Assembly: GCA_024762925.1 (NCBI GenBank) | Contig: JANTGM010000043.1 | Location: 1-46,154, forward strand | Source of the DNA: Kofleriaceae bacterium | Lineage (GTDB): Bacteria > Myxococcota_A > Polyangia > Haliangiales > Haliangiaceae | Direction: 5' to 3' | DNA length: 46,154 nt | Part shown: piece by piece, positions 393 through 17,856 of the stretch | Layout of the letters: every line of letters begins with the position of its first letter | How positions within the stretch are numbered: the first letter of the stretch is position 1 | Notes under the pieces: model-generated | What the model was told of the DNA's origin: nothing | The model's database searches: none | Seen by the model: only the letters and a program-made list of their open reading frames with translations | Program-made: the position numbers and the translations under genes

Positions 393-2510
393 TTACATGG
401 AGTAGCGAAGCGCGATCACGATGTGTGCGATGGTGGTAACCATCATGAGCACCGAGAAGGGCACGTGGATGTATTTCCACGACTTGAGAAACAGGCGTGC
501 ACGGGGAGCGAGAATACTTCGGCGCTCAATCATCACAATCCGGTCGCAAAGCGATGCAATGCGCTTTGCCGTCTTGCGATTCGAGAGCTTTTGAAGCGTT
601 CTACGCCTCTTTCTCAGTACAAACGTTCTCCTGAGCTCGTCCTTGATGAGCCAAAACAGCAGCGACGTTAGTCGCACATGTTCGCGTGTGCTGTGGACTC
701 GCGTGCGATCTTCTTCGATGAATGACTCGGCCAGTTGGACGAGTTGTGGTTGCTCCGCTGTCATCGTAGTGAGTTGTCCTCGAAGCGAGAGCTCCTCTAT
801 TTCATGTCCATAGGTCATCGAGGGAACGAGCGTGTAGAGGTACCGGCCGAGAAATCCTGAGGCCACAACCATGATCATGCTGCCAAAAGGAATCGAAACC
901 CAATTGTCCAGGCGAAGCGCGCTGTGCAGCACAATGAAGAGTGGCCCCACCGTGCCCGTCATGAGGTGCAAATCGAGCCAGTATTTGTTGCTCGCTGTCC
1001 GCATAAAGAGCCGGAGTCGACGACGAAGTGGATAGGCCATGGATATGACCATTAGCGCCGTGCCTACATAGCCGCAGAGGAGGGCTAGCTCGGACCCTGC
1101 AAGGTAGCCAACTCCGAGTTTTGCCAAGTCGGGACTTAGGCCCTCGGCAAGTAGAACTTGAAAGCGCAGTGAGAGGGTCGGCGCAAAGTGTCGGAGAGCG
1201 ACCTCGGTAGCAGCGAGCCCCCAGACGAGCAGGCCGAGCCCCCAGATCCAAAGGCCGAAGCGGCCGTCGCGAATTCTCGCAAGACCTGCATCCTTGACCC
1301 CAACGCTGCTTGTGAACGGCTTTATGGGCAGGACTTCCTTTGGGGGCTTTTTACCCAGTTCTTCTGGGCCCGAATCTCCAAAGAGCCGCGCCATATCGAG
1401 TTCGACAAGAGCACCAGTGGGGCACGCCGAAATACACGCCTGCTCGGCAAAACCATGGCAGTGGTCGCACTTGTTCGCCACGCGCCTTGGTGGAGCCGAG
1501 CGCCCCTTGCCCGGCCCATGTTCGAGGAGGCCTTTCTCGCTCAAACGCGCCTTGAGATTGAAGTTGAAAGTCTCTTCTTTCTCCTCGGCAATGTTGACCA
1601 TGTCGATAGCCCCATAGGGACAACTCTGAGCACAAAGGCTACAGCCAATGCACTTTGCATGATCAATCTCGACTTCACCTCGCTCGGCACAATAGGAAAT
1701 GGAGTCATGCTCGCAAGGCGTTAGGCATCGCTGGTCTTGGCAGGTTCTGCACGAATACACGAAATCCAACATGCCGAGGCGAAACCCGCCGAGAGTGAGT
1801 CGCTTCGCGGCATGGCGCTCTTCGCAGGCGTCTTCACACTGTTTGCACTCAATACACAGATCGAGTTGCCGCACGCGAACACTGGGGCCAGCAATCGAAA
1901 GCCCGTGTCGAAGGTAGAAGTCGAAGATCTCCTGCTTGACGCCAGTGATGCCGCGCAAAAGCCGCTCGGACGAGGCGATCGAAGTTGCAAGGGCCTTGGA
2001 AAGTGAAGGGTGGTGTTGTGTGAGTCGTCCCAACGCATCGCGGTCGAAACGAAGCATCGTGATTGGAGTTGTGGAGTAGAGAGCCAGCGTATTTGCGTCG
2101 CACAATGCCTGCACGTTGAACACATCCGTTTTGCGAAACCGCGCCAAGTTCTTGTTTGCAGTGCGAGCGAGTGGAGGCAGGGGAAGGAGACTTCGCTCGG
2201 CTTCGGTCTTGCTATTCCGCTCGTCTTGAAGGGCGCGTCTTTGAGCCACGTCTTCTTGGCGAAAGACACCGAGGACAACTTGGCCCTCACAGACGTAAAA
2301 GAGGCTCGTGTCGGTCTTTGCGGTGAGGAGTTGATCTCGTTCGAGCTCAATGACCTCCAATTCACCTCTTGATAGGGCATCCACCAGGGCTTGCTGTGGA
2401 ATCTCAGCAAATGCTGCGTGGCCTGCGATCGCGCCTTCCAGCAGGCCCATGCTTGTGCCCGCATGCCGAGGCATCGCATGCAGGCCTGAGAAATCTACGG
2501 AAGCAGACAC
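393..2510 (-). CDS. CRP-like domain / four-cluster [4Fe-4S] / diheme cytochrome b membrane fusion protein
   Basis: 705 residues, probably an inner-membrane electron-transfer hub. Residues about 25-185 resemble a cyclic-nucleotide-binding (CRP-type) beta-roll, but I see no convincing phosphate-binding cassette. Residues 219-363 carry sixteen cysteines in four groups, as in DmsB/NrfC-type subunits: C219-C222-C225-C229, C254-C257-C262-C266, C287-C290-C293-C297 and C348-C351-C359-C363. The C-terminal third has hydrophobic helices near 418-436, 470-492, 515-530, 540-562 and 680-700. H515/H529 and H682/H696 form two H-x13-H pairs, the ligand spacing of ferric reductase-like diheme b proteins. The gene starts 3 bases after the stop of the FAD oxidoreductase, so the two are almost certainly co-transcribed. 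The fusion order is unusual. A sensory rather than catalytic role for the N-terminal domain is possible. Confidence 0.88.
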   Translation of the reverse strand: MSASVDFSGLHAMPRHAGTSMGLLEGAIAGHAAFAEIPQQALVDALSRGELEVIELERDQLLTAKTDTSLFYVCEGQVVLGVFRQEDVAQRRALQDERNSKTEAERSLLPLPPLARTANKNLARFRKTDVFNVQALCDANTLALYSTTPITMLRFDRDALGRLTQHHPSLSKALATSIASSERLLRGITGVKQEIFDFYLRHGLSIAGPSVRVRQLDLCIECKQCEDACEERHAAKRLTLGGFRLGMLDFVYSCRTCQDQRCLTPCEHDSISYCAERGEVEIDHAKCIGCSLCAQSCPYGAIDMVNIAEEKEETFNFNLKARLSEKGLLEHGPGKGRSAPPRRVANKCDHCHGFAEQACISACPTGALVELDMARLFGDSGPEELGKKPPKEVLPIKPFTSSVGVKDAGLARIRDGRFGLWIWGLGLLVWGLAATEVALRHFAPTLSLRFQVLLAEGLSPDLAKLGVGYLAGSELALLCGYVGTALMVISMAYPLRRRLRLFMRTASNKYWLDLHLMTGTVGPLFIVLHSALRLDNWVSIPFGSMIMVVASGFLGRYLYTLVPSMTYGHEIEELSLRGQLTTMTAEQPQLVQLAESFIEEDRTRVHSTREHVRLTSLLFWLIKDELRRTFVLRKRRRTLQKLSNRKTAKRIASLCDRIVMIERRSILAPRARLFLKSWKYIHVPFSVLMMVTTIAHIVIALRYSM

Positions 2511-2513
2511 AAG

Positions 2514-4313
2514 CTAGCCTTGTGCACGTCGTGGTACGTCCACAACAGTGCTCTCGTCAAATTCCTCTACAACGATTGGTGCTTCAAACTCGGCGAGCGG
2601 CGAGAACACCGATTCGAGTTCATCATCTGTGATTTCTGGGCCCCCGAGAGTTTCGGAAAGCGGTACAGGTTCTCGATGTGTGGTGAGGCGCTTCCAAAGA
2701 CCTGGGCGCGGTGCCGAGGACTCGACACTTGTGACATCATCGTTCGCAAATTGGTCATCGTGAGTTTCAAGCCTTGGTGCCGGTGTGTGCTCGACGATCT
2801 CCCGCACTGCGGTGCGAACCTTCGTCCATTCGTCGGAGATAAATTCGATCACTGAACGCTGCCGCGGTTGGCGAGGAGCAGGAGCTGGCGCGACTGGCTG
2901 CGCTACTTCGAAGTGCTCGCCACGGATTCTTGCTGCAGCCTGCAGTGGCTCGGCTGGGCAGTCATCAGCGTTGGGGACCAAGCCCAGCACGAGCGAGTCA
3001 ACCGCGCCAAGCTCGTAGAGATGAGGGCGCTCTACAAATCGTACCCCGAGTTTTTCTAACCAAGCCACGGGTGCTTCTGCACCAATGAGTAGAAACGCCT
3101 GCTCGTTGGGAATGGTTTCTTCCTCGCCACTGGACTGCTTGATCGTCACACTTGCCTTGTCAAACGAGGTCGCATTACTGCTCATAAGAATTCGGACTTT
3201 GCCAGCATCGCCATACTCTTGAATTCGCTTCTGATTTTCAATCTTGGCTCGTTTGAACGCTTTGCTTCGATAGCTCAAGGTCACCGTCGCTCCAACATCG
3301 GATAGAGACATCGCAGCCTCGAGCGCTGAGTCTCCACCACCGACTACGAGCACCGCTTGCCCAACAAATTCATCGGGATCTTCCAAGACCGAGTGAACCT
3401 TTGAGAGATTTGCGCCAGGAACCGCGAGAAGTCGAGGCTTGCCACGAAGGCCTGTTGCGAGGATGACCCGCTTGGCTAGGTAGGTTGTGACGGTGGTGCG
3501 AATCTCAAAGATTCCATCATCCCGGCGCTTCACATCCTCGACAGCTTCGCCTTTCCGAATAGGCAGGGCTACTTCAGCAATCAGAGTCTTCCACGCTGCT
3601 AAGAGTTCTTCCTTGCGAGCGTCGAAAACGGGCAGAAACGAGACGTTTCGGGCATCTGCCGGCTCCGACATAAAACTCTTACCCTTTGGGTATCGCGAGA
3701 CGGTTGATGCAATGGTGTGCTCCTTTTCGAGCACGACGCATCGCAATCCGTGATGCATGCTGGCGAGGCCGGCGCTAAGCCCACCGGGGCCAGAACCGAC
3801 GATGACAACGTCCAACACAACCGGATTTGGGTCCGTAGTCTGTAGACCATCGCGCAGCATGTGCTCAACGACCAACCTACCGAGGTTCGCAGCGTTCTTG
3901 ACCAGCGGCTTGCCTGCAACCTCACCAATTAGGTACTGCCCTGGTACCGAGGTTTGGAAGTGGGGGTCAATCTCAGGGACGGTGAGTGTCTGTGGTTTCG
4001 TTCCCTCGCGGTGCATAACAAGTGCAGTTGTGGGACATGCCCACGCGCATTGCTCGCACTGTACGCAATCTCGAAAGTTCACGACCTGTACCTTGTGATG
4101 CACAAGGGCAAGCACCTTTGTTGGACACACATCAATACAACCTTCACAACCAATGCAACGATCGGCGTTGATGGAGTGAATAAGCGCGAGAGAGCTATCT
4201 TGGCGGATCTCAGCTTCGTGCTGAACGACTCTGCGGTCCTCGAAGACTGCATGCACTGATGCAATCACGATCGCAACCGCAATGAAGACGCCAAGTACGA
4301 GAAGAAGAACCAT
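2514..4313 (-). CDS. Membrane-anchored 2x[4Fe-4S] ferredoxin / FAD-dependent NAD(P)H oxidoreductase
   Basis: 599 residues. An N-terminal hydrophobic segment (about 2-23) anchors the protein. Two classical ferredoxin motifs follow: C53-C56-C59-C63 and C83-C86-C89-C93. Then comes a thioredoxin-reductase-like flavoprotein fold with the FAD dinucleotide motif GSGPGG (173-178) and a second motif, VVGGGDSALE (about 317-326), for NAD(P)H. The redox-active CxxC of thioredoxin reductase is not visible where expected, so electrons probably move between pyridine nucleotide, FAD and the iron-sulfur clusters, not to a thiol partner. The last 130 residues or so are acidic and proline-rich, with no domain I recognise. 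It sits between the small haem lipoprotein and the cytochrome b/Fe-S fusion, with gaps of 11 and 3 bases, and probably feeds or drains electrons for that complex. Confidence 0.88.
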   Translation of the reverse strand: MVLLLVLGVFIAVAIVIASVHAVFEDRRVVQHEAEIRQDSSLALIHSINADRCIGCEGCIDVCPTKVLALVHHKVQVVNFRDCVQCEQCAWACPTTALVMHREGTKPQTLTVPEIDPHFQTSVPGQYLIGEVAGKPLVKNAANLGRLVVEHMLRDGLQTTDPNPVVLDVVIVGSGPGGLSAGLASMHHGLRCVVLEKEHTIASTVSRYPKGKSFMSEPADARNVSFLPVFDARKEELLAAWKTLIAEVALPIRKGEAVEDVKRRDDGIFEIRTTVTTYLAKRVILATGLRGKPRLLAVPGANLSKVHSVLEDPDEFVGQAVLVVGGGDSALEAAMSLSDVGATVTLSYRSKAFKRAKIENQKRIQEYGDAGKVRILMSSNATSFDKASVTIKQSSGEEETIPNEQAFLLIGAEAPVAWLEKLGVRFVERPHLYELGAVDSLVLGLVPNADDCPAEPLQAAARIRGEHFEVAQPVAPAPAPRQPRQRSVIEFISDEWTKVRTAVREIVEHTPAPRLETHDDQFANDDVTSVESSAPRPGLWKRLTTHREPVPLSETLGGPEITDDELESVFSPLAEFEAPIVVEEFDESTVVDVPRRAQG

Positions 4314-4324
4314 TGACTATTTGT

Positions 4325-4873
4325 TTATGGCAGGTGAACTCGAAACCCACTGCTATGGCAGGATGCTGCGTTACAGCTGGCACTGGTTTGAGGGACATCC
4401 GACAGCATCGGAATTACGTCGGGACAGACTGCAAGGTACGTTCGAACAGGAAAGGAAATGGGATCGATCGAGTAGAAGTTGCCGTTAGTTTCCGTAACCA
4501 TTGTGAATCGATTGCCATAGGCATCATCCACAACAATGGTTGCCCCAGCAGCACCCGCCGTGCCTTCTTCATCGGTGAAGAGAGTTCCCCCGATGGTAAA
4601 TGGTGGAGCTCCTCCCGCTTGGCGATGGCATGAGACGCAGTCCTCCCCTGGAAAATGGTATCCGTCGCCGGGAGCCGCCGTGAGGGGAGAGCAGTCGGGA
4701 ATATCGGCATCTGGTGCAAAGGGGTCCGCGTCAGAAAAGGGGCTGGCATCGGAAGTCACCTGATTGGGAAACTTCTCTTCCATTGTGCCTACACAGCTCG
4801 CGAGGAGAATCGAGCTGGCAACAGCAACTCGATTGATGAGCTGGTGAGGCATGAGCCCAGACTGCAGTTGCAA
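4325..4873 (-). CDS. Small haem-binding lipoprotein, promoter-proximal gene of the redox operon
   Basis: 182 residues. The N-terminus has a lipoprotein signal with lipobox LLASC, so it is exported and lipid-anchored. One canonical haem site, CVSCH, lies near residue 78. A second, CNAASCH (C-x4-CH), lies close to the C-terminus; it has the variant spacing also used in the giant cytochrome at 11860-15297. Between them is a compact beta-rich segment (TIGGTLF ... GATIVVDD ... NGNFYS) like the carboxypeptidase-regulatory-like modules found in cytochrome-associated exported proteins. An in-frame ATG at residue 8 (near 4852) gives a shorter, more typical signal peptide and may be the true start. It precedes the FAD oxidoreductase by 11 bases. 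It may shuttle electrons from the membrane complex into the periplasm. Confidence 0.75.
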   Translation of the reverse strand: MQLQSGLMPHQLINRVAVASSILLASCVGTMEEKFPNQVTSDASPFSDADPFAPDADIPDCSPLTAAPGDGYHFPGEDCVSCHRQAGGAPPFTIGGTLFTDEEGTAGAAGATIVVDDAYGNRFTMVTETNGNFYSIDPISFPVRTYLAVCPDVIPMLSDVPQTSASCNAASCHSSGFRVHLP

Positions 4874-5083: not shown

Positions 5084-6478
5084 ATGGTTCGTCCGCTCAA
5101 CGTTGCATGTAGCACCTTGTGTGTTGCGGTGTTGGCCCTCGCTGTGGATGCCAATGTGGAGGCGCGCCGCCGCCCCAAGAAGGTGAAGGAGAATCGCAAG
5201 AACAAGCCCGTAAAACGGATTCGGGACGACACCATAAACGCTGGTGAAGCTGCCAACTTGAGGAAAGGTCCTGGAGACAACTACAAGTCCACAGGGGTTT
5301 TGCCTCCGGGAACGGCGGTGGTTGTCATCGCGCTGAAGGGTCGATGGGCCCAGGTGCGAAGCGGCAAGAATGTGGCTTGGCTTCTACGAAGAAGTCTCAC
5401 CGGCTACCAACCAGACTCGGTAGACAAAGCGCCTGTTGAGGGGGGGCGAGTTTGGGGAGGCGAGATGGCAAGCGCTGCCTTTCGAGTACAGGTGGTGAGC
5501 AGCGATGCTTCGCTCTTTGTCGAACCCAGTTCGAAGTCGGCGACTGCCGGAAGTGCATCACGAGGAACCAACTACGTAGTGCTATCTAGGAGCGATGATC
5601 GCGAGTGGCTAGAGATTCGCTCGAAGGATGGCAGCGTTGCGTGGATTCAGAGCGATCGCGTCCAGAGCAATACGATGGCGGGTGTTGATGGTGATGGTTG
5701 GCAGAGAGCTCCAGACGCTCCAGAAGCCTCCTCCTGGGACAGAGGCTCGCTACCTTCGTTGGAAGCTATGATGCGGATAGGTATTGGCTATCGAGCAATC
5801 TCGATGGACTTTCAGTCTGCTGGGGAAGGAGCGCTTGCAAACACCATTACAGAGAGCCAGGCGATGGCCGCAGTGGGGGCCGTTGATGTGGTTTGGCGAA
5901 GTTCTAGTCGCCGTCTGCATGTTGGGCTTGACGGCCGAACTCGGGCAAGCTACGCCAAGCCGGGGATTGATGTAATTCGTGAAGACATGTCGCTCGGAGA
6001 TGTGGATTTCTCGATGTACGAGACGCAGGCTGGGCTTCGCCTTGGAATTGTTCTGGGGGACCTTGAAATCTCGCCTCGTGTTGGAGGTCGCTACGATGCT
6101 TTCTTGACCCGCCAAGTCGATAACGTTGGCCTCCTGCCACGAGAGAGCCTCGCGGCGCTTGTTGGTGGGTTGCGCATTGATTGGTACCGACTTGCTCCAG
6201 AAGTTGTCTTGTCGATTCGGGGAGACGTAGTCGTCTCGGGGCGCCACAAGCAAACACAGGGGCTGAAGGATGGCGAGAGTACTGACATTCGTGGTGCCAC
6301 GGGAGATCTCCGAGCCATATATTCCGCGAGTCGGCTCATCGACGTTGTCGCAACGTTCCACTATGGGTGGACAAAGTACGTTTGGTCGGGGCGCAGTGAG
6401 CGAAATCCTGATGTCATGCGATCTGAGAGAAGTGATCATGCGCAAAGCCTTGGGTTGGGCGTCGCGCATCGCTTCTAG
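5084..6478 (+). CDS. Exported protein with two SH3-like domains and a C-terminal beta-barrel-like region
   Basis: 464 residues. A signal peptide ends near residue 27, followed by a very basic stretch (about 28-48). Two bacterial SH3-like (SH3b) domains can be read. The first, about 48-108, has the classical AANLRKGPG and GTAVVV features. The second, about 130-188, ends in VAWIQSDRV. The rest (about 225-464) alternates polar and aromatic/hydrophobic residues in strand-length runs and ends in phenylalanine (VAHRF), as outer-membrane beta-barrels often do. Bacterial SH3b domains commonly bind peptidoglycan, so the protein may tie an outer-membrane barrel to the cell wall. It is the first gene of the operon with the 30-haem cytochrome, which begins 16 bases downstream. 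The barrel assignment rests on sequence texture and is the least certain part. Confidence 0.75.
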   Translation: MVRPLNVACSTLCVAVLALAVDANVEARRRPKKVKENRKNKPVKRIRDDTINAGEAANLRKGPGDNYKSTGVLPPGTAVVVIALKGRWAQVRSGKNVAWLLRRSLTGYQPDSVDKAPVEGGRVWGGEMASAAFRVQVVSSDASLFVEPSSKSATAGSASRGTNYVVLSRSDDREWLEIRSKDGSVAWIQSDRVQSNTMAGVDGDGWQRAPDAPEASSWDRGSLPSLEAMMRIGIGYRAISMDFQSAGEGALANTITESQAMAAVGAVDVVWRSSSRRLHVGLDGRTRASYAKPGIDVIREDMSLGDVDFSMYETQAGLRLGIVLGDLEISPRVGGRYDAFLTRQVDNVGLLPRESLAALVGGLRIDWYRLAPEVVLSIRGDVVVSGRHKQTQGLKDGESTDIRGATGDLRAIYSASRLIDVVATFHYGWTKYVWSGRSERNPDVMRSERSDHAQSLGLGVAHRF

Positions 6479-6494: not shown

Positions 6495-8822
6495 GTGAAT
6501 TGCAGGGTCGCAATCGTTGTCTCGGGAATTGCTTTGGTGCTTTTCTCATTCTCGAGACTGGCAGTGGCACAGGCTGACTTTTTCTCGTCTTCGCCTGGGA
6601 AACTCTCGTCAAGTCACTCATCGCTCGAGGGCCAAGACAAGTGCTCCAAGTGTCACACCGATGGCAAGTCTCTTTCTCGCAACCTATGTCTTGGCTGTCA
6701 CGATCATCAAAACCTTGGGAAGCGCATTGCAGCCCAAAAAGGCTTTCACGCTTCTAGGCGCGTCAAAGGGAAACCCTGTCAGAACTGCCACAAAGAGCAT
6801 CGAGGTCGTGGGTTCGATTTGATGGGCTGGGAGTCTATCGGAGGTCAGAAAAAGTTCAATCACTCGGAGACTGGTTGGACATTGGAAGCAAAGCACAAAG
6901 TGCTTGCTTGCAAAGAATGTCACAGTTCGAAGAATCGACAGGGGTTAAGGGTTTTTCTTAGTAGCAGTAAGTCTTGCGGCGATTGTCATGAGAAGAAACA
7001 ACCACATGGGCCTCTGCGTGAGTCCCTCAAGCGGTGCGAGCGCTGTCACTCGCAAGCGTCCTGGAATCCGCCACTGCGCAAAATGAAGTTTGACCACAAC
7101 AAGCGGAGTGATGCCGCGATGTCGCTGGAAGGGACGCATTTGGACGTCGCATGTTCTAAGTGCCATCCAAACTCAAAATTCAAGCTCGGCAAAGGCAGCG
7201 ATTCTTGCGATAGCTGCCACAAGAGCCCTCACGATGGTCAGTTGTTCGGCACAAAGAAATGTCAGCTCTGTCACTCTCCAAAAGAGCGATCCCTCAAGGC
7301 GGTTCGCTTTGCTCACAAGCGACAGACGAAATTCGCTCTGCTTGGGCGTCATGGATCGATTGATTGCGTGCGTTGCCACAAGGCATCGCTAAAGAAACGA
7401 AAGCCGAAGACGGATTGTGCGAGTTGCCACGCATCACAGAACCGCCACAAAGATCGCTTCGACCAGTTTGTGCCTGCAGGCAGCAAGACGCCATCGTGTG
7501 AGACCTGCCACCAGCCTGGAGGCTGGCGTGGGCAGATCTTCAACCATGCGGAGAACACAGCATTCACGCTCACGGGGAAGCACCAGACAGTTAAATGTCG
7601 CCAATGTCATCGGGGTAGGAAAAGTTCTGAGTTTGAGAGGTTCGAGGCAAAGACCGTTGGCTGCTTGGGGTGCCACCAACACAAGGAGGCTCACGGCGGC
7701 AAGTACAAGGACGAAGAATGCCTGAACTGCCATACCCAGCCCGGCCAGAAGAGCATGACGAAACAGTCTCTGGAGATTTTTCACGGTGAGAATGCGCGCT
7801 TTCCTCTCACTCTTCAACACGCCAAGATTGCGTGTGAGCGTTGCCATGTGGGGGATGTTTATGAGAGCACTCCAACGGAGTGTGGGGCCCGCTGTCATGA
7901 GGATTCGCTCCATCGAGGAAATCTCGGGGACAAGTGCTCTGGGTGCCACAGTCCCGGCAAGTGGGAGCCTGATCGGTTCACGCACAAGAAAAACACTGAC
8001 TTTCCGCTAAGAGGGCGGCACAAGACGGTGCCTGCTTGCGTTGACTGTCACCCCGACTCTCGGTTCTCAGATACCCCCCGGACATGTGGTGCCCGAGGGT
8101 GTCACCAGGCCGATGATATTCACGAGACCGCACTGGGAAACAAATGCGAGCGATGCCACACTGAAACAGGTAAGACGCTTTTCAATCACAATCGACAGGC
8201 TGCATTTCAAATCGATGGTGCGCACACCTTGGCGCTGTGCGCGAACTGCCATGCTGACCGCCGATTCAAGCCAACGCCGAAGGCGTGTAGTGGATGCCAC
8301 GAGGAGCCTGCGATTCACAAAGGTCGCTACGGCAAGAAGTGCGAGAGTTGCCACACAACAGCAAGCTTTGGCGATATCGAGGAGACCCATGACGCAGGCG
8401 ACTTCTCGCTAGCAGGAGCTCATGATCGAGTGCAGTGCGATCGCTGCCACAAGAATGGGGAGAAGCGACGGGGCTCTGGTGAATTGTGCATCACCTGCCA
8501 CAAAAACGACGATGTGCACCAAAACGGACTCTCTCCACGTTGCGGTGAGTGTCATAAGCAAACGGCCTTTCTTCCGGTGCGCTTTAACCACCTAAGTGTG
8601 GGGTGCAATCTTCCAGGCTTGCACCGAACTCTGCCCTGCGCCGACTGTCACAGAAACGGCAACTTTGGGGCGGTTTCACCTCTGTGCGTCAACTGCCATC
8701 GCGGAGACTCTCTACGGGTCTCTGTGCCGCCACACAACAACTTAGTTCAGTGCGGTGACTGTCACAATACCAACGCCTGGCTTCCCATGGCTCGTCTCGG
8801 GAGGCAGAGCTTGTGCCGTTAA
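6495..8822 (+). CDS. Periplasmic or outer-membrane multihaem cytochrome c with 30 predicted haem sites
   Basis: 775 residues with a GTG start just after the upstream stop and a signal peptide ending near AVAQA (about residue 26). I count 30 haem-attachment motifs: 28 CxxCH, one C-x3-CH (CGARCH) and one C-x4-CH (CGARGCH). They come in triplets in a repeating module of about 70-80 residues, with the pattern FxH, F.L.G.H, C..CH, C..CH, H.G, C..CH, so most haems have a conserved second histidine as a likely axial ligand. The protein is lysine-rich. It is encoded between two probable outer-membrane barrels and overlaps the second by 10 bases. That is the genetic layout expected of a barrel-cytochrome conduit carrying electrons across the outer membrane. 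The electron donor and terminal acceptor are not known from the sequence. Confidence 0.93.
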   Translation: MNCRVAIVVSGIALVLFSFSRLAVAQADFFSSSPGKLSSSHSSLEGQDKCSKCHTDGKSLSRNLCLGCHDHQNLGKRIAAQKGFHASRRVKGKPCQNCHKEHRGRGFDLMGWESIGGQKKFNHSETGWTLEAKHKVLACKECHSSKNRQGLRVFLSSSKSCGDCHEKKQPHGPLRESLKRCERCHSQASWNPPLRKMKFDHNKRSDAAMSLEGTHLDVACSKCHPNSKFKLGKGSDSCDSCHKSPHDGQLFGTKKCQLCHSPKERSLKAVRFAHKRQTKFALLGRHGSIDCVRCHKASLKKRKPKTDCASCHASQNRHKDRFDQFVPAGSKTPSCETCHQPGGWRGQIFNHAENTAFTLTGKHQTVKCRQCHRGRKSSEFERFEAKTVGCLGCHQHKEAHGGKYKDEECLNCHTQPGQKSMTKQSLEIFHGENARFPLTLQHAKIACERCHVGDVYESTPTECGARCHEDSLHRGNLGDKCSGCHSPGKWEPDRFTHKKNTDFPLRGRHKTVPACVDCHPDSRFSDTPRTCGARGCHQADDIHETALGNKCERCHTETGKTLFNHNRQAAFQIDGAHTLALCANCHADRRFKPTPKACSGCHEEPAIHKGRYGKKCESCHTTASFGDIEETHDAGDFSLAGAHDRVQCDRCHKNGEKRRGSGELCITCHKNDDVHQNGLSPRCGECHKQTAFLPVRFNHLSVGCNLPGLHRTLPCADCHRNGNFGAVSPLCVNCHRGDSLRVSVPPHNNLVQCGDCHNTNAWLPMARLGRQSLCR

Positions 8823-10459
8823 GTAAAACTCGTAGATTGCGAGGATTGCTGCCTAGCGCAATGGTGGTGGTCATTCTTTCTGGTGAGCAAGAGTCCCTTG
8901 CGCAGTTTGTTTCCTCCCAGAACGAGTCCAGTCAAGGAGCTACTCCAGCGGCACCTGCCGACGAATCTACGCAGCTCGATTTGCGGCTCACGCTAAGCAG
9001 CTTTGCCTATGCCGAGTCGGGAAGTGACGGTGCGCCGCTGTTGGAAGGCGGAGAAGAGTTGCAGACAGCGAGCCCGAGGCGCCGAGTCTTTGGTGACTTG
9101 CGGCTTGAAGTTGGCGCTAAGAGAATCTCTGGAAGTCACTTTGAACTCAAGTTCGATGGGCGGCTTCGGGAAGCCAATCGGAGCGACGTGCAGTCGGGCT
9201 TTCGCGGTGGTGAAGAGTGGGACTTGCAGGATGCGTACATACGCTATGAAGGTGAGAAGCGGGCTCTCACACTTGGCCGACAGCGCATTGGTCCAGCGGG
9301 AGCAAACACCATCGACGGACTTAGCTACCGTCACCAGAGAACCAAACATTGGTCTGCTGTGGCGTTTGCTGGACTGTTTCCAACGCGTGGCTCGCGCAGT
9401 GTGACACAGGACTATCCTCGTGGAGGTCTACGCTATGAGGAGGACGGCACCATAGCCGAAGTGGGCCGAAGAATCATTCCCGCGACTGTTGGGGCGGGTG
9501 CTAGCTATGCCAAGCCCTCGGTGCACGGCGATGTCGGGGTTGGGGGCATTGTTCCATTTCGTCGTGATGGTGTTGGCGATGCCCGCGCTCGTCCGCAAGT
9601 GTTTCTTCATAGTAACGGATATTGGAATACTTCTGAGTCGACGACCTTCTATCATTATGCCACTGCAGATCTTGCAAGTGAACAGGGGGCTGCTCTTCGC
9701 AACTTGAGCGCGGCTCTTCGCAGCCAGGCATCTACCCACTTGGTACTGCGCGCCTCGGTGCACCATCAATCTACCGATTTGCTTCGCCAGTCGGTCGTCA
9801 ATCAACTAGAAGATCCCGATACGACCTCTATGGGATTGGTGCAAAATGGACTCACGCTTTCGCGGGTTGCGTCGCAGACTGTTCGTGCCGCTGCGAGTGT
9901 TGATGCAGCGCGACGTCGTCTGCAGTTCACTCTTGGAGCGTCTGCGAGACAGCGCTCCGATCTTGAGTTGGTGCTCGCGGATGGCTCGACGTTCACCTTC
10001 CCAACGTCTCGTCGCGCTGTGCTCAGCATGCAGGTCCTCGACCGACACTCGATTTTTGGAATGCGGCTCGCTGGGGAGTTTCGACTGCTGCAGGGGCTCG
10101 GCAAGCGCGATCTAGCCACCTCGAAAGGTGGCGTGGCATCCATTGCAGCGAGTCGCGATGTGCTTGATGGCCTAGCGACGATTCAGTTTGATGCGGCGGC
10201 CCAGTCGCTTGAGGACGCAGACCGACGTGGCACATGCGAAGCCGCCGATCCTCTGACCTGTTTTGGACAGTCACGCGTTCGCGCTGTACAGGCAGGTCTC
10301 CAGGTGACGGTGCAATCGTCGAAGAATTGGATGTTTTTGGTCGACGGCCACTGGGGGCTTGAGAGCGTCGAAACCCATGATGCCGATCAGCAACCCCTTG
10401 CTCTGCCGCTGGTTCACTCGGTGACAGCTTTTGCCCGGCTCCGCTATCGCTATCGGTAA
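8813..10459 (+). CDS. Predicted outer-membrane beta-barrel protein paired with the 30-haem cytochrome
   Basis: 548 residues. The GTG start at 8813 lies inside the end of the cytochrome gene and is preceded by a good ribosome-binding site (GGAGG, about 8801-8805), which implies translational coupling. A signal-like N-terminus ends near ESLAQ. From about residue 50 onward the protein alternates short amphipathic strands with polar loops (for example DLRLTLSSFAY, ALTLGRQRIG and FARLRYRYR at the C-terminus), which is typical of porins. No enzymatic motif is visible. The tight pairing with a very large multihaem cytochrome suggests it is the porin part of a transmembrane electron conduit, comparable in role (not in recognisable sequence) to MtrB or to porin-cytochrome barrels of other bacteria. 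An alginate-export or generic porin relative is the main alternative. Confidence 0.78.
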   Translation: MPLSKTRRLRGLLPSAMVVVILSGEQESLAQFVSSQNESSQGATPAAPADESTQLDLRLTLSSFAYAESGSDGAPLLEGGEELQTASPRRRVFGDLRLEVGAKRISGSHFELKFDGRLREANRSDVQSGFRGGEEWDLQDAYIRYEGEKRALTLGRQRIGPAGANTIDGLSYRHQRTKHWSAVAFAGLFPTRGSRSVTQDYPRGGLRYEEDGTIAEVGRRIIPATVGAGASYAKPSVHGDVGVGGIVPFRRDGVGDARARPQVFLHSNGYWNTSESTTFYHYATADLASEQGAALRNLSAALRSQASTHLVLRASVHHQSTDLLRQSVVNQLEDPDTTSMGLVQNGLTLSRVASQTVRAAASVDAARRRLQFTLGASARQRSDLELVLADGSTFTFPTSRRAVLSMQVLDRHSIFGMRLAGEFRLLQGLGKRDLATSKGGVASIAASRDVLDGLATIQFDAAAQSLEDADRRGTCEAADPLTCFGQSRVRAVQAGLQVTVQSSKNWMFLVDGHWGLESVETHDADQQPLALPLVHSVTAFARLRYRYR

Positions 10460-10629: not shown

Positions 10630-11640
10630 CTACTGCTTTGTGCATGCAGCAGCGGTCTTCTTGAGCAATGCGGCGAGTTCTGCGTCGTCTTCGGCAAGCG
10701 AGTACTTCGCCGCGTACTTGTGCACGTCCTCGCCATCGTAGGGGCATCCAGCGCCCGTAGCTTCGGCCAAGATACCTTTGCCGACTTCTCCGAAGCACAG
10801 TCTTGCAAGCTCCTTGACCTTCGCTGCGTGCCACTCGGAGCCTTCTATAGGTTTCTTGTATTGGAAGTACTGATCGCAGGCATATGGAATGGTTTTTGTT
10901 TTCTCAGAAATAGCCTTAGTGACCTCGGCGATGTTTTCCTCAAGATCCTCGACAGAACGAACCTCACTGCACAACATCTCAGCAGCGGCGAGTTTCTCTG
11001 GAGTGAGGTGCTTAACCATTTTCTTGTACGACGAGCAGGTGGAGTCGGCTTCCAAACCTTCATCTCGCTGTTTCATTGCTCGCACCTTAAAGTCAGCGGC
11101 AAGCGCCGTGCAGCCGGCCTTGAGTGGTGCACTCACGGCCAGCCACTGCGCGACGTCATCGTCTGTGGAGCAGTAATACTCCGCGGAATCTTGCACGTCT
11201 TTGTCGCTGCGCTCGGCGAAGACGGCTGCGATAACCTTGTCGCATATAGCTTTGATCGCTGGGGCTGCTTTGTACGCCTCGATGCGCACAGAGCACGTCA
11301 TAATGGCGTCACTGAGTTTGCCATCGGCCATCAGGCCTTCAATCTCCTTCACATCATCGCCATAGCGCCGTTCTAGCTCACACGCGCGATATTCGTCGCA
11401 GCCGCTTTTCTTGGCACATGCTAGTGAGGCTTTCACGTCCGTGGTGGACTTTTCTTCGTTGCAGGTAGCAATGGCCTCCTTGCGAATCGCCTTGGCCTGC
11501 TCGCGGGCCTCTTCGGGGTTTTCGCTGCACTCGATTGCTTTGTCGAATGCCTTTTCACACTCAGCGGCACCGCCACCGCCACACGCAATAGATAGAGATG
11601 CGAGGCTGGAAAGGAGAACTAAGGTTAGGGAACGATGCAT
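10630..11640 (-). CDS. Cysteine-rich lipoprotein of unknown function
   Basis: 336 residues from the ATG at 11640. The frame stays open to 11829, but the chosen start gives a textbook lipoprotein signal (MHRSLTLVLLSSLASLSIAC, then GGGG). The mature protein is acidic and helical, with regularly spaced single cysteines (for example CEKAFDKAIEC, CAKKSGC, CTALAADF). There is no CxxCH, so it is not a cytochrome. The cysteines probably form disulfides in a repeated helical fold, similar in texture to other cysteine-rich lipoproteins of myxobacteria-like organisms. I do not recognise a named family. It lies between the barrel gene and the 33-haem cytochrome, and upstream of it the strand is free for about 220 bp, so it likely has its own promoter. 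A link to the electron-transfer genes rests only on position. Confidence 0.8.
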   Translation of the reverse strand: MHRSLTLVLLSSLASLSIACGGGGAAECEKAFDKAIECSENPEEAREQAKAIRKEAIATCNEEKSTTDVKASLACAKKSGCDEYRACELERRYGDDVKEIEGLMADGKLSDAIMTCSVRIEAYKAAPAIKAICDKVIAAVFAERSDKDVQDSAEYYCSTDDDVAQWLAVSAPLKAGCTALAADFKVRAMKQRDEGLEADSTCSSYKKMVKHLTPEKLAAAEMLCSEVRSVEDLEENIAEVTKAISEKTKTIPYACDQYFQYKKPIEGSEWHAAKVKELARLCFGEVGKGILAEATGAGCPYDGEDVHKYAAKYSLAEDDAELAALLKKTAAACTKQ

Positions 11641-11859
11641 GGGTACGGCTTTATTTTCTGATGGGTATGAGTTGTTAGTAGTTGGAAAGAACAAAGTGGT
11701 GAAAGGACTGGCTTGCGATCGAGACGATGTGAACCCCATGATGTCGCAATATTTCTGCGGAGACCACGCGCGCTGCCGGTAGATCAGACAAATTCTCCAG
11801 AGTCTACGGCTCCAGCCAAAACGCAGCAAATGCTCTCACCTGACGCCAGGATGACCGGG

Positions 11860-14800
11860 CTACCAGATTTCGACGTTGTCTTCGTGGCAGCCGCCACCCA
11901 CGTTTGAGCAGCTCTTGTTCGCCGGATTCCACGTGCCACCAACGGTGATTTCAATGTCCTTCACACCGTTAACATGCAGCGCAGGGGCGATGATGTCGAA
12001 GTTTGTATTCACGACCGATTGGTGACACTCAGAACACCTCATGTTCTCGTCGTCAATGTGCTTTTTGTGCTCACCCGACATCGCATCTCCTGTCGTGTTC
12101 TCACCAGGGTGACAGGAAGCGCAACCAAGGGCCGTTGTGGAGGTCCAGGTTTCGCTGCCATTGTTTTGTCGACCGTTGCCATGACAATAGAGGTTGCTAC
12201 ATGTTGTTCCGTTGTAGCTTGCCGCGCTGTTGAGCGAGGAGAAGAGCGTTTCGGCACCGGGGCTCCCGCCCTCGATATGTGCGGGCGAAAGTGCACTCGA
12301 CGGTTTTAGATGGCAAGCGCTACAGTCAAATGCTGCGTGGGTACCACTCGGCTCCACATGGACAGAGTGAGCACCGATAGCGGGAATGGAACGGTTGACT
12401 TGATCGAGAAGAGACAATGGTGGTGCACCCGTAAGGTTGTCCGTTCCGCCATGGCAGAAGGTGCAGTCGGTCTGCCAGCTCGAGTGACAGTCCGTGCATG
12501 CGATGCCCGAACCGCCGCCGGTGAGTGCGGTGCCGTGACAGCCGGCAGCGTTGCAAGAACCCACGCCGCCTGTGTTGAACGCAGAGCCATGTTGTCCTGG
12601 CTCTGCCCAACCCGGTGGGTGGACCGCAATGACTTGTAAGACGCCATCGATATGGAGATTGGGATTGATGATGACCATGCCGGGCCCCACAACTTCGCCA
12701 TGACAGCTTTCACAATCGGGATTTGTTGGGTGTGGTGCAGGAGGTGGAGTGCCATGACACGCACCACAGTCAGAAGCACCGCTGCCCGAACTGGTCCACA
12801 CGGGAGTTGTTAGTGCTCCGCCCTGCAGTGCGGCTGTGCCTCCATGACAGTAGTTGTTGCTACAGCTCGAGCCATTCCACGTAGTCCCTGCTGCGAGCGG
12901 GCCAAAGGTTAGTTCGGCTGGGAGCGGTGTGTCTGTGTGTCCAACAGCGTTTGTGCTGCCGGGCTCTTGATGGCATTGGGCGCACAGAATTGGTTTGTAC
13001 CAATCCCCAGGAGTGAGGTGTGCTTGATGTGCGCCAACTCCGCGGGAGGATGTTAGGGCAGAGCCGCCGACATCTGTGGGAGGAGCCGCGTTGCCTCCGC
13101 CCCCATGACAGCTATCACAAGCGAGGTCTCCGCTCACATCCACACTTCCGTTGATGTGAAGTGTGGCATCGGTGATCGTGAGACCACCACCTTGGGTCAT
13201 GCTTGGATGGCACTTGCCGCAATCGGTATCGGCAGGATGCGGAGCGGGGGGTGGCGCGCCATGGCAACTATCGCATTGTGACTGCGAGCCATCGACCAGT
13301 GTCCACTGGGGCGCTACGACCTGGCCGCCTGCCAGCGTAGAACCGTGACAGTAGCTATTGGTACAGGTGGTCCCGTTGAACTGCGCACCCGAGCCCGCCA
13401 GTGGACTGAAGGTCAACTCTGCCGGAAGTGGTGAGTCAATGTGACCAACGGCGCCGGTGGTTGAGGGCACCAAGTGACAGGCACTGCAGGCAATTTCTTG
13501 ATGCCAATCGGAAGCACCGAGGTGTTCACGGTGTGAGCCGACCCCGCGCGTGGTGTTGCTTGTGTTGCCATTGGTGTCGCTTGGCGGAGCGGCGATTCCA
13601 CCCGAGCCATGACAGCCATCGCATGCCAAGTCCCCCGCTACATCAAGGTTGCCATCGATGTGTCGGGTTGGATCCGTGATGACCAAGCCTGCTCCGGCGG
13701 TCATGGTGTCGTGGCATTGGCCGCAATCGCTTCCACTAGGATGGGGCGCTGGTGGAGGCGCGCCATGGCAACTATCGCACTGCCCCTGGGTTCCATCGAC
13801 TTGTGTCCAAAGAGGATTTGTTGAAGTGCCCCCACTAAGAGTTGTTCCGTGGCAGTAGGTGTTGGAACAAGAGCCGCCGTTCCAACTCGCGTTGCCAGCC
13901 AAGGCGCCAAAGTTGATTTCGGCTGGCAGGGGCGTGTCCATATGACCCACGGCGAGAGTTGCACCGGGTACAAGGTGGCACTCTGCGCAGGAGAACTCCT
14001 TGCGCCAAGACGAGGCCTCTACGTGTGCCCTATGAGCACCTACACCACGTTCTGTCGTGGCGTCGTTTCCGCTGACGTCTAGAGGAGGCGCTGCGATTCC
14101 GCCGCTGCCATGACAAGAGTCACAAGGCTGGTCATCGGTCAGATCTACCTTTCCATCAATGTGCAGGTCTGGGTACGCGATCACCAATCCCGCACCGGCG
14201 ATCATGGTTGGGTGACAATCAGCGCATTCGCTACTTGCAGGGTGTGGAGCTGGAGGTGGGGCCCCGTGGCAGGAGCTGCACTGTGACTGGGATCCATCTA
14301 CCACTGTCCATTCAGGGGATCGATCTGCACCGCCTGAGAGTGTTGCACCATGGCAGTAGCTGTTGCTGCATGTGGTGCCGTCCCATGTTGCCTCGCCAGC
14401 CAACACACCAAACGTGAGTTCTGCAGGAAGAGGGGAATCAACGTGACCGATGTCTACGGTGCTGGTTGGAATCAAGTGGCACTCGGCGCATTGCACTTCT
14501 TTGTGCCAATCAGAAACACCAAGGTGTGATCGGTGGGCGCCAACCGAACGCTCTGTCGTTTCGGTTTGTCCATCAACCGAGGTAGGCGGGGCAGAAACTC
14601 CATCGCTTCCATGGCAGGTATCGCAAGGGGCACTCTCATTCACATCAAGCTTTCCATCAATGTGAAGTGCAGGGTACGCAATCACCAAGCCCTCGCCAGG
14701 ATTCATGGTTGGATGACACTGGCCGCAATCGGTGTTGTCAGGGTGTGGAGCAGGCGGGGCAAGACCATGGCAACTTCCACACCCAGATGCCGAACCATCG

Positions 14801-15297
14801 ACTACCGTCCACTCGGGCTCGGTCTGAACGCCGCCGGTTAGTGTCGAACCGTGGCAGTAGTTGTTGCTGCAAGTGGTGCCGTTCCAGTCGGTGTTTTGCA
14901 GAAACCCTGTGAGATCAAGTTCAGCGGGGAGGCTATCGTCTATGTGACCTTCAGACCCAATCTCAAGAGGGACCACATGGCACTCTGAACACTCGATATT
15001 GCGCCGCCAATCCGAGGTTCCCAAGTGGCTGCGGTGAGCACCGACGCCCCGACTTGTGGTCTCTGTGTTGCCGGTTGTGTCGAGGGGAGGAGCCGCGGTG
15101 CCTTGGCTGCCGTGACACGGGGATGAGCAGGCTGCTTCGATTGGAGCGGAAGGCGCTGCATCATCTTCTGGCCCAGCATCCTTGGCCTCATAGGTGCCAA
15201 GGTTGCAGCCGGCGAGCACGCCAAATGCCAATGCGAGCACGAGTCGAATGACGTAGTGATGACGTTGTCGCAGCAAGGCAATTGAGATTTGCAACAC
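11860..15297 (-). CDS. Giant multihaem c-type cytochrome lipoprotein with 33 predicted haem sites
   Basis: 1145 residues, GTG start, lipobox GVLAGC at residues 26-31, so lipid-anchored. I count 33 haem-type motifs: 24 CxxCH, seven C-x4-CH (such as CSNNYCH), one C-x3-CH (CSSPCH) and one C-x6-CH (CSNVGGGCH) at the extreme C-terminus. The C-x4-CH motif followed by CxxCH is the pattern of the CxxxxCH/CxxCH domain described in Geobacter surface cytochromes. Residues about 57-885 are five tandem units of 167-168 residues, each with five haem motifs in the same order; the last 260 residues hold eight more. Unlike the lysine-rich 30-haem protein, this one is acidic and rich in Gly, Pro and Thr, suggesting an outer-surface location. 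It likely passes electrons outside the cell, but substrate and polarity cannot be read from the sequence. Confidence 0.93.
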   Translation of the reverse strand: MLQISIALLRQRHHYVIRLVLALAFGVLAGCNLGTYEAKDAGPEDDAAPSAPIEAACSSPCHGSQGTAAPPLDTTGNTETTSRGVGAHRSHLGTSDWRRNIECSECHVVPLEIGSEGHIDDSLPAELDLTGFLQNTDWNGTTCSNNYCHGSTLTGGVQTEPEWTVVDGSASGCGSCHGLAPPAPHPDNTDCGQCHPTMNPGEGLVIAYPALHIDGKLDVNESAPCDTCHGSDGVSAPPTSVDGQTETTERSVGAHRSHLGVSDWHKEVQCAECHLIPTSTVDIGHVDSPLPAELTFGVLAGEATWDGTTCSNSYCHGATLSGGADRSPEWTVVDGSQSQCSSCHGAPPPAPHPASSECADCHPTMIAGAGLVIAYPDLHIDGKVDLTDDQPCDSCHGSGGIAAPPLDVSGNDATTERGVGAHRAHVEASSWRKEFSCAECHLVPGATLAVGHMDTPLPAEINFGALAGNASWNGGSCSNTYCHGTTLSGGTSTNPLWTQVDGTQGQCDSCHGAPPPAPHPSGSDCGQCHDTMTAGAGLVITDPTRHIDGNLDVAGDLACDGCHGSGGIAAPPSDTNGNTSNTTRGVGSHREHLGASDWHQEIACSACHLVPSTTGAVGHIDSPLPAELTFSPLAGSGAQFNGTTCTNSYCHGSTLAGGQVVAPQWTLVDGSQSQCDSCHGAPPPAPHPADTDCGKCHPSMTQGGGLTITDATLHINGSVDVSGDLACDSCHGGGGNAAPPTDVGGSALTSSRGVGAHQAHLTPGDWYKPILCAQCHQEPGSTNAVGHTDTPLPAELTFGPLAAGTTWNGSSCSNNYCHGGTAALQGGALTTPVWTSSGSGASDCGACHGTPPPAPHPTNPDCESCHGEVVGPGMVIINPNLHIDGVLQVIAVHPPGWAEPGQHGSAFNTGGVGSCNAAGCHGTALTGGGSGIACTDCHSSWQTDCTFCHGGTDNLTGAPPLSLLDQVNRSIPAIGAHSVHVEPSGTHAAFDCSACHLKPSSALSPAHIEGGSPGAETLFSSLNSAASYNGTTCSNLYCHGNGRQNNGSETWTSTTALGCASCHPGENTTGDAMSGEHKKHIDDENMRCSECHQSVVNTNFDIIAPALHVNGVKDIEITVGGTWNPANKSCSNVGGGCHEDNVEIW
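12640..15129 (-). repeat. Five tandem coding repeats of about 504 bp within the giant cytochrome gene
   Basis: Each unit encodes 167-168 residues, with landmarks in fixed order: CxxCHG, AAPP, GVGAHR, CxxCH, PLPAEL, C-x4-CHG, VDGS, CxxCHGAPPPAPHP, CxxCHP, LHIDG. Units begin near residues 57, 225, 392, 559 and 727. DNA similarity between units is high enough for recombination and copy-number change. Confidence 0.85.
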
Positions 15298-16067: not shown

Positions 16068-17789
16068 CTATGGGAGCTCGCAGACAAACGGCAGGTGCTG
16101 GCCGCAATGGGTATCGTGCAGCTTGGCGTTGCCCTTGGTAAGAACGACGCAGTCTTGATTGCAGCCGGTGTTGTCGGGCTCGCCTTTGGCCCACAACTGC
16201 TGGTCAATGGCGGTGGCGTCACTCCACAAGAACGCACCCTCGGTTTCTCTATCGGAACCGCCAAGCCACCAGCGCTCCGTGTCGATCGAATTTGCGCGCT
16301 CTCGGAGTTTTTCTAACGACGTAGCTGATTTGAGATTAGCGAGTTTTCCACCTCTGGCGACGCAGTGCTCGCGAGCATCCACAAAGGGCATGGGCAAGTT
16401 GCAGAGCGCGTACGTCTCGTTGTCAATGCGCTCCTCTGCGCAGGGGCATGATACCGCGTCATCCACAAGCCCTGAGCAGTTGTTGTCGACACCATCGCAT
16501 GCCTCAACAGCGCCTGGATTCACCTTGGCATCGCTATCGTCACAATCCATGCAACCGAAGCCGTCGCCATCTGCATCCACTTCGTTGCCCTCCGCATCAA
16601 GGCAGCGTGTGTGCTCCTCAACGTAGCGCTCGCGATCTTCAATAAACTCAACGAGTCGCTTGCGGCGCTTCATGATGGTCTTCGCACTGTGCGGACGCTT
16701 CTGGTCGGCATTGACATCTTCCGAGATGATCGAAGAAATCACTTTGGCACCTGTTGTCATATTGAGTTTTCGCGCAGCCTTGTGCACTCGTCGCAAGGCC
16801 AGCAGGTAGTCGCGTCTGCACTCGGCGTGCGCAAAGCACTTCTTCGCAAGACGGCCGCGAGAGGCATATGGGGCAATGTCCTTAAACCAAGCTCGATCCA
16901 ATCCCCAGGACATGAACTGCCATTTGTTGTCCAGGGGGTTGCGATAGATTCGGTAATTGTGACTGTGGTGGTAGCCATCAAAATCTCCCACATACGTCGA
17001 GAAGGCCAAGAAGAGCGTTAGGTGCTCGAGATTCAGCGGCGACTCTGGCTTGCGCCAAAGAGAGTCTGCTAGCGCATCGCCGCTCGCTTCGGTGGCCTTG
17101 GCAAAGCGCAAGAGTGCGCTGCGATCTTCTTGGCCGACATCAAGGTCAAAGCCCTCGACATCGTCTGTTGTCAGATCACAGCCATATTCCCCCTCGTAGA
17201 GTTCGCCCGCACCGGAACCAAACTGTCGCTCGAGAAAGTCGGTGTCGGGAGTTTCAACGACCAAATAGAGACCATATGGCGCTCCGTTCACGCGAAGGTT
17301 GGCAAAGCCCGCTTTGGGCACGGGTAGCCCCACTTCTCGTGCAAGCCGATAGGCGAGGTACTCCCGTATCATAGTGGGGTCTTCAACCAGGTTGTTGAGC
17401 GTTAGCCGATGCACGCCAAGGAAACGTCGTCCCTTGTGTTCTTTGCCCTTGTTGAATCGCAGCTTAAGAGCGGGTTTCTTGTCGATGCTGCGCAGGCTAC
17501 GGTGCCCCTTGATGCGCAGTGCGACATCCTCAAACACCTGGCCTTCGTACTCGAATCCTCCCTTTCTCCACTTCTTGGGATTCTTGCGAAGAGCTCCCAT
17601 GTCGTTTTCGCTCAGCACCAGATCGAAAGTGGGAACTTCTCTTAGCCCGTAGAGGTCTGTCATCGTGTTGGCACGCGTGCTCTCAGAAGACTTCTTGGCT
17701 GGCTTTGAGCACGAGTAGAAGCAGAGCATTGCCAATGCGATCGTTGACCGGACTAGCAATCTGGAGCAAAGGAGCTGCATGAACTCCAT
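16068..17789 (-). CDS. CotH-like lipoprotein with MopE-type calcium repeats and a C-type lectin domain
   Basis: About 573 residues from ATG 17789. The frame is open to a GTG at 17843, but that start lies in a strong hairpin and lacks a signal-like sequence. A lipoprotein signal ends CFYSC. Residues about 45-370 match the CotH family: ALRIKGHRS, KPALKLRFNK, LTLNNLVED, GAPYGLYLVVE and WGLDRAW in the usual order. CotH proteins include an atypical spore-coat protein kinase, and related domains occur in many surface proteins. Residues about 395-445 hold an Asp-rich MopE-like motif (DADGDGFGCMDCDDSD, then CDGVDNNCSGLVDD), typical of calcium binding. The last 115 residues look like a C-type lectin fold, with WWLGGSD, EGAFLW, WAKGEPDN and HCGQHLPFVCE. 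It is probably a surface adhesin or modifying enzyme. It follows the DsbA-like gene, whose activity could form its many disulfides. Confidence 0.82.
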   Translation of the reverse strand: MEFMQLLCSRLLVRSTIALAMLCFYSCSKPAKKSSESTRANTMTDLYGLREVPTFDLVLSENDMGALRKNPKKWRKGGFEYEGQVFEDVALRIKGHRSLRSIDKKPALKLRFNKGKEHKGRRFLGVHRLTLNNLVEDPTMIREYLAYRLAREVGLPVPKAGFANLRVNGAPYGLYLVVETPDTDFLERQFGSGAGELYEGEYGCDLTTDDVEGFDLDVGQEDRSALLRFAKATEASGDALADSLWRKPESPLNLEHLTLFLAFSTYVGDFDGYHHSHNYRIYRNPLDNKWQFMSWGLDRAWFKDIAPYASRGRLAKKCFAHAECRRDYLLALRRVHKAARKLNMTTGAKVISSIISEDVNADQKRPHSAKTIMKRRKRLVEFIEDRERYVEEHTRCLDAEGNEVDADGDGFGCMDCDDSDAKVNPGAVEACDGVDNNCSGLVDDAVSCPCAEERIDNETYALCNLPMPFVDAREHCVARGGKLANLKSATSLEKLRERANSIDTERWWLGGSDRETEGAFLWSDATAIDQQLWAKGEPDNTGCNQDCVVLTKGNAKLHDTHCGQHLPFVCELP

Positions 17790-17834
17790 GGTAACAGCCG
17801 AAGCACGGCATTGCGCAAAGCTCAGAGAGACGAA

Positions 17835-17856
17835 CCGCGGCACCTTGGCACCGCGG
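17835..17856 (-). terminator. Strong GC hairpin between the DsbA-like and CotH-like genes
   Basis: On the minus strand, CCGCGGTGCC and GGTGCCGCGG pair over ten positions (eight Watson-Crick, two G-U) around AA. The site is about 15 bases after the DsbA-like stop. No clear U-run follows, so it may attenuate rather than fully terminate. It covers the GTG at 17843, which argues against that start. Confidence 0.45.

Follow-up and report, generated by a model that had tools for sequence, protein, structure and literature searches.

The window considered here, a 46,154-nucleotide stretch of contig JANTGM010000043.1 from a Kofleriaceae bacterium, carries at 11860-15297 on the minus strand a gene for a 33-motif multihaem c-type cytochrome of 1145 amino acids (aa), a putative outer-membrane lipoprotein with matches to TIGR01904 and PF09698. 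Its last motif, CSNVGGGCH (residues 1130-1138; 11884-11910, minus strand), holds six residues between the two cysteines, and judged by conservation this terminal site is a real one. We favour, with moderate confidence, a reading in which the protein is a surface cytochrome of a porin-cytochrome conduit and bears at CSNVGGGCH a 33rd covalent haem attached by the ordinary cytochrome c maturation (Ccm) machinery. The family to which the protein belongs is known, and the novelty lies in the terminal spacer series found within it.

The gene, its repeats and its family

The open reading frame opens with a GTG start codon, the true start being uncertain within the signal peptide. A scripted count agrees with the total of 33 sites given in a preliminary description made from the sequence by itself: all 33 CH dipeptides have a usable cysteine upstream, as 24 CxxCH, seven Cx4CH, one Cx3CH and one Cx6CH motif, so that counting by CxxCH alone returns 24 sites. 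That description had also seen the Cx4CH motifs and the terminal Cx6CH correctly, but it overlooked the single Cx3CH (CSSPCH, residues 57-62; 15112-15129). Only one of the 67 cysteines stands outside the motifs, Cys31 of a lipobox LAGC (15205-15216, minus strand), from which a Cys-[DN]-L-G N-terminus runs that is kept in the syntenic orthologues.

The rest of the chain falls into five pentahaem units and a C-terminal domain, all encoded on the minus strand. The units, rightly reported as five tandem copies of 167-168 aa with five motifs each, one of them Cx4CH, cover residues 57-224 (14626-15129), 225-391 (14125-14625), 392-558 (13624-14124), 559-726 (13120-13623) and 727-894 (12616-13119), which gives lengths of 168, 167, 167, 168 and 168 aa. 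Every unit has the haem spacing 2-2-4-2-2, the first value being 3 in unit 1, where the Cx3CH is the first motif. The C-terminal domain (residues 895-1145; 11863-12615) has eight motifs with spacers 4-2-2-2-4-2-2-6 and occurs also in many shorter homologues. Pairwise identities among the units are 51-64% for protein and 65-75% for DNA, and equivalent units of orthologues are not clearly closer to each other than are paralogous units; the pentahaem repeat is an old duplication. A recent DNA tandem repeat was considered and rejected on the same DNA identities, and Tandem Repeats Finder finds none. A chance origin of the 33 motifs is excluded, because the orthologues have nearly the same order of spacers and because the terminal Cys, Cys, His and Trp are invariant. 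The Cx3CH at the chain start is kept with its three-residue spacer in four relatives (L157, L158, L159 and L039), and expanded spacers therefore stand at both chain ends.

With this protein the GSu_C4xC__C2xCH family (TIGR01904/PF09698), named after Geobacter sulfurreducens, gains a new member. The protein matches the NCBIfam model TIGR01904 in eight stretches with 200.5 bits against a cut-off of 27 (E 1.9e-60) and the Pfam model PF09698 with 73.7 bits against a cut-off of 21.7 (E 1.9e-20), and PF14522 and PF14537 are also matched. The likeness is the alternation of CxxxxCH with CxxCH in repeated domains, and since Cx4CH is the hallmark of TIGR01904 such motifs are not unusual in themselves. 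Here all seven Cx4CH motifs have a CxxCH after them, and the terminal Cx6CH has none. What sets the protein apart from the family as described are its five regular pentahaem units with an eight-haem cap, and a terminal slot which across homologues holds three to eight residues between the cysteines (X3 to X8) and so lies outside what the family name describes. Searches for a solved structure also returned a ferredoxin (weakly, E 0.012) and reaction-centre cytochromes (E 2e-4), which were set aside as relatives, the matches probably reflecting Cys and CxxCH composition.

The terminal site and its spacer series

Homologues were gathered by single-sequence searches with the C-terminal 160 residues in two partly overlapping genome samples, 290 from the class and 379 from the phylum, and a further collection was made with the terminal motif omitted from the query. 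The preliminary description had put CSNVGGGCH forward as a non-standard haem site to be sought in homologues, and as a haem-site candidate it is indeed genuine and conserved there: among 106 domains with complete ends the terminal spacer is X6 in 12, X3 in 74, X4 in 17, X7 in one and X8 in two, and X5 occurs in none of these 106. A 47-sequence alignment shows both terminal cysteines, the histidine following them, the final tryptophan and the upstream histidine of LHVNG to be invariant (H236, C258, C265, H266 and W273 in A1 numbering). The upstream histidine is His1108 of the window protein (11974-11976, minus strand), which may be the distal ligand of the terminal haem.

Loss of the terminal cysteines in homologues had been named beforehand as a way in which the site might fail. 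In the collection made without the terminal motif in the query, C...CH is found in 104 of the 109 homologues that end near the terminal motif (103 by pattern and one as CxxxCCH with an extra cysteine), and the other five stop directly at or just past H-x-[DN]-G, so that all 104 of the 104 extending beyond it keep the site; a separate set of shorter relatives does lack it. These shorter GSu_C4xC-type cytochromes (L026, L028, L031-L035, L037 and L038) end after H-x-[DN]-G-x-[VL]-D with no terminal haem motif. Stop-codon read-through was considered for several members that matched across an in-frame stop, and was rejected on the 13 loci checked: no haem motif follows the stop in frame, and therefore those proteins simply end after H-x-[DN]-G. 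That the gene's 3' end owes its form to a frameshift or an assembly error was likewise discarded, as the X6, X7 and X4 forms come from independent genomes and are each in frame before the same terminal tryptophan.

Long spacers are nearly confined to the terminal slot. Counting unique motif contexts, six or more residues stand between the cysteines in 15 of 131 last motifs and in one of 1502 internal motifs, a contrast for which the Fisher test ignores kinship and gives no more than an indication, and the single internal case (L155) turns out to be of the terminal type too, with a long tail behind it. A quick maximum-likelihood tree, from which the spacer columns were left out and some of whose nodes are weak, requires at least six changes in the class of six or more. 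The closest view of such a change comes from two same-genus orthologues in the same gene cluster, L010 with X7 (genome G011) and L011 with X4 (genome G009), which are sisters with support 96. Most of the added residues are Gly, Asn, Ala, Ser, Thr and Pro, as a loop would have. Local alignment of the terminal slot scores 28-47 against the Cx4CH slot and 25-39 against the haem-1 slot, which is suggestive only of an origin from the former. An internal C-x5-CH (CATVTGCH or CATATGCH) before ...FTWQ or LTWQ is seen in L014, L015 and L016, where the window protein has CxxCH, and may be another spacer expansion.

Drift of this kind from X3 to X8 would also suit a disulphide or a plain loop, and so the terminal C...CH might not be a covalent c-haem site at all but a disulphide, a site for another metal or one with a single thioether, leaving 32 c-haems. 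Spacers of X6-X8 are nearly absent at internal sites, and CX6CH, CX7CH or CX8CH was not found named as a haem site in a literature search lacking most subscription journals, which makes this weak evidence of novelty. We nonetheless consider this 32-haem reading unlikely. The CH dipeptide and the upstream histidine are invariant along with both cysteines, and a disulphide offers no reason for a conserved histidine. Moreover X3 or X4 fills the very same slot in most homologues, and in a different protein haem is proven at spacers of these lengths (PMC11024163).

Under the preferred reading, CSNVGGGCH would hold the 33rd covalent haem with both cysteines as thioethers, His1138 as the predicted proximal ligand and the invariant His1108 as the likely distal one. 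The site resembles a cut-short copy of the family Cx4CH slot (CSN-x-CH...W), and because it is the chain end, its inter-cysteine loop may have been free to drift between three and eight residues with the site kept.

Cytochrome c maturation genes

How a haem would be attached across six to eight residues turns on the maturation genes. The preliminary description had suggested a search for a matching dedicated haem lyase, a hint which finds no support in the genome. Searches with Cytochrom_C_asm, ResB and CcmF_C in the organism's own draft genome (6.79 Mb, 246 contigs) returned one CcmF, together with CcmE and a CcmH-like C-terminus, and found neither a second CcmF nor any ResB/CcsB. The names of Ccm proteins other than CcmF were read from translations. 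Of the remaining Cytochrom_C_asm proteins, one is CcmC, found beside CcmB and CcmA, and the other is HemX-like and adjoins HemA. CcmF_C searches extended to relatives gave matches in one frame per genome in seven Kofleriaceae-type genomes with X6 or X7 cytochromes (G002, G006, G011, G012, G016, G020 and G024).

Non-standard sites with their own maturation route do exist. In Wolinella and Shewanella the CX15CH sites depend on a dedicated lyase (PMC6976685), with CcsA1 and SirEFG as precedents (PMC6976685, PMC7096707), and the X6 site could by analogy be special and matured by a lyase of its own, as is CX15CH in MccA/SirA. Given the single CcmF, the lack of ResB, and the lack of a second CcmF frame in the seven relatives, a dedicated lyase was rejected within the limits of draft genomes, and we hold it very improbable. 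What the MccA/SirA octahaem sulfite reductases share with the present protein is a non-standard inter-cysteine spacer with a conserved C...CH. Theirs is a catalytic site served by its own lyase (PMC6976685), whereas here the spacer is X6 (three to eight in homologues, not 15), with no dedicated lyase and no catalytic signature seen.

The single ordinary Ccm system would then attach the terminal haem. An X6 site is chemically plausible, because haem is proven by mass spectrometry at the Cx3CH and Cx4CH motifs of Methanosarcina MmcA (PMC11024163) and because haem 1 of Geobacter OmcZ has a 14-residue loop between its cysteines (PMC9473688). MmcA (PMC11024163) is alike in combining standard with expanded spacers within a single multihaem protein, and differs in being an archaeal heptahaem protein with no spacer of X6 or longer. 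OmcZ (PMC9473688) is alike in having a long inter-cysteine loop at an end or interface haem of an extracellular multihaem protein, but is an eight-haem filament subunit whose special site is N-terminal, and it is likened here by features and not by sequence.

Physical proximity of the two kinds of gene is seen in genus g51 (family f7), where X6 or X8 cytochrome genes share a contig with ccmF and/or ccmC in G087, G123, G128 and G131. In G128 (L196, 3518-16239) the genes directly downstream of ccmF, ccmA, ccmB and ccmC encode a predicted barrel-like protein, an X8 cytochrome and a long multihaem protein. The X8 cytochrome there (L196, 12099-12815) is a six-haem, lipoprotein-like protein of one pentahaem unit plus the X8 terminal site, and is small enough for expression and weighing.

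That one homologous haem site has moved through spacers of 3, 4, 6, 7 and 8 residues among related bacteria, all matured by one ordinary System I (Ccm), is a proposal whose chances we put as evenly balanced. The tolerance of cytochrome c maturation for spacing is usually probed by artificial mutants or by isolated oddities such as CX15CH with its dedicated lyase; one conserved site would here provide a natural series of X3, X4, X6, X7 and X8, an X7/X4 pair of sisters included, in genomes with one CcmF. If true, CcmF/CcmH would not depend on a set Cys-Cys distance where a site stands at the end of a chain, and genuine haems would escape motif searches that look for CxxCH, Cx3CH and Cx4CH alone.

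Gene cluster and the putative conduit

Porin-cytochrome conduits such as MtrCAB of Shewanella and OmbB-OmaB-OmcB of Geobacter join a barrel to multihaem cytochromes on either side of the outer membrane, and a comparable set of genes lies beside the 33-haem gene. On the plus strand of the window a gene for an SH3-domain protein (5084-6478), the conserved first gene of the cluster, is followed by one for a 30-motif cytochrome of 775 aa (6495-8822), a putative periplasmic conduit part, and by one for a predicted outer-membrane beta-barrel (8813-10459), the putative conduit porin. The 30-motif cytochrome has 28 CxxCH, one Cx3CH and one Cx4CH, and matches the DmsE-family decahaem model TIGR03508 weakly and in part (E 7e-6; 25.6 bits, below the 192-bit cut-off). 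Its string of 30 spacers is the same in L158 and in L161/L039, so that its single Cx3CH and Cx4CH are conserved. The AlphaFold2 model of the barrel has some 22 long strands with a predicted local distance difference test score (pLDDT) of 80.7 and a predicted template modelling score (pTM) of 0.78, and its Foldseek matches are porins, among them MtrB of the Mtr complex (6r2q_B, E 5.9e-8), ranked alongside general porins.

The assignment of the 33-haem protein leans chiefly on gene context. SH3, 30-haem, barrel and 33-haem genes are clustered in L039 (Kofleriaceae Ww100), L158 and L159, and the latter three of them in L157; within the extent of each stretch the gene order is the same and all lie on a single strand. 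A barrel gene adjoins genes for a putative periplasmic and a putative outer multihaem cytochrome in all four. Three orthologues that are complete in one frame (L157, L158 and L159) have exactly 33 motifs each, as has the paralogue L164, and the syntenic orthologues have the lipoprotein-like ...C-[DN]-L-G N-terminus in common. The similar trio in g51, in which the X8 cytochrome gene sits between those for the barrel-like and long multihaem proteins, also supports a conduit. On this footing a porin-cytochrome conduit is the probable setting of the 33-haem protein, which would be its outer-membrane lipoprotein. Compared with known conduits the likeness is a clustered barrel, a long cytochrome with a partial match to the DmsE/MtrA type and a lipoprotein multihaem cytochrome; the differences are 30 and 33 haem motifs as against about 8-12 each, an outer cytochrome of another repeat type, and the additional gene for an SH3 protein. 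Electrons would leave the periplasm by way of the 30-haem cytochrome, which the barrel would hold, and reach the predicted 33 c-haems of a membrane-anchored and probably surface-exposed protein, through its five pentahaem units and eight-haem cap, with the terminal haem predicted to serve as the exit.

Several points weigh against this picture and against the covalent 33rd haem. Within the window the 33-haem gene runs opposite to those for the 30-haem protein and the barrel, from which 10630-11829 separates it, and is therefore not co-transcribed there with the conduit genes. The structural matches of the barrel are generic to porins and TonB receptors, and the C-terminal domain of the cytochrome, in a model of middling quality (pLDDT 74, pTM 0.60), had no fold match in the PDB, which does not by itself show a new fold. 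There is the group of shorter homologues that do without the terminal site, every genome used is a draft, and that plain Ccm can attach haem at X6-X8 is unproven, because the better-studied CX15CH sites need a dedicated lyase.

The inversion in particular would fit a 33-haem protein that is a stand-alone electron store, a periplasmic wire or a filament subunit and no part of an outer conduit; repeated pentahaem units are what a capacitor or polymer might be built from, and no structure was found for the protein's domain. Such a role seems to us doubtful, in view of the way the gene is clustered, on one strand, with those for the 30-haem protein and the barrel in four further genomes, the conserved lipobox and the g51 trio.

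The remaining neighbours lie to either side of these genes. A 4Fe-4S/FAD oxidoreductase (YpdA-like; 2514-4313) and a small putative lipoprotein (LLASC) with one CxxCH and one Cx4CH (4325-4873), both on the minus strand, also adjoin the cluster in L158. An Fe-S membrane protein is encoded at 393-2510 (minus strand), and it and the oxidoreductase, being beside the conduit genes, might form an inner-membrane entry for electrons. The unrelated gene at 10630-11829 (minus strand), for a Cys-rich putative lipoprotein with no Pfam or NCBIfam match, stands between barrel and 33-haem genes only in the window. Elsewhere in the genome a second barrel copy, 34% identical (G000:C51:6014-7570), suggests a second conduit. 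Further along the window, 16068-17843 (minus strand) encodes a predicted lipoprotein-like protein which unites a CotH kinase domain, a MopE-type metal-binding motif and a C-type lectin domain.

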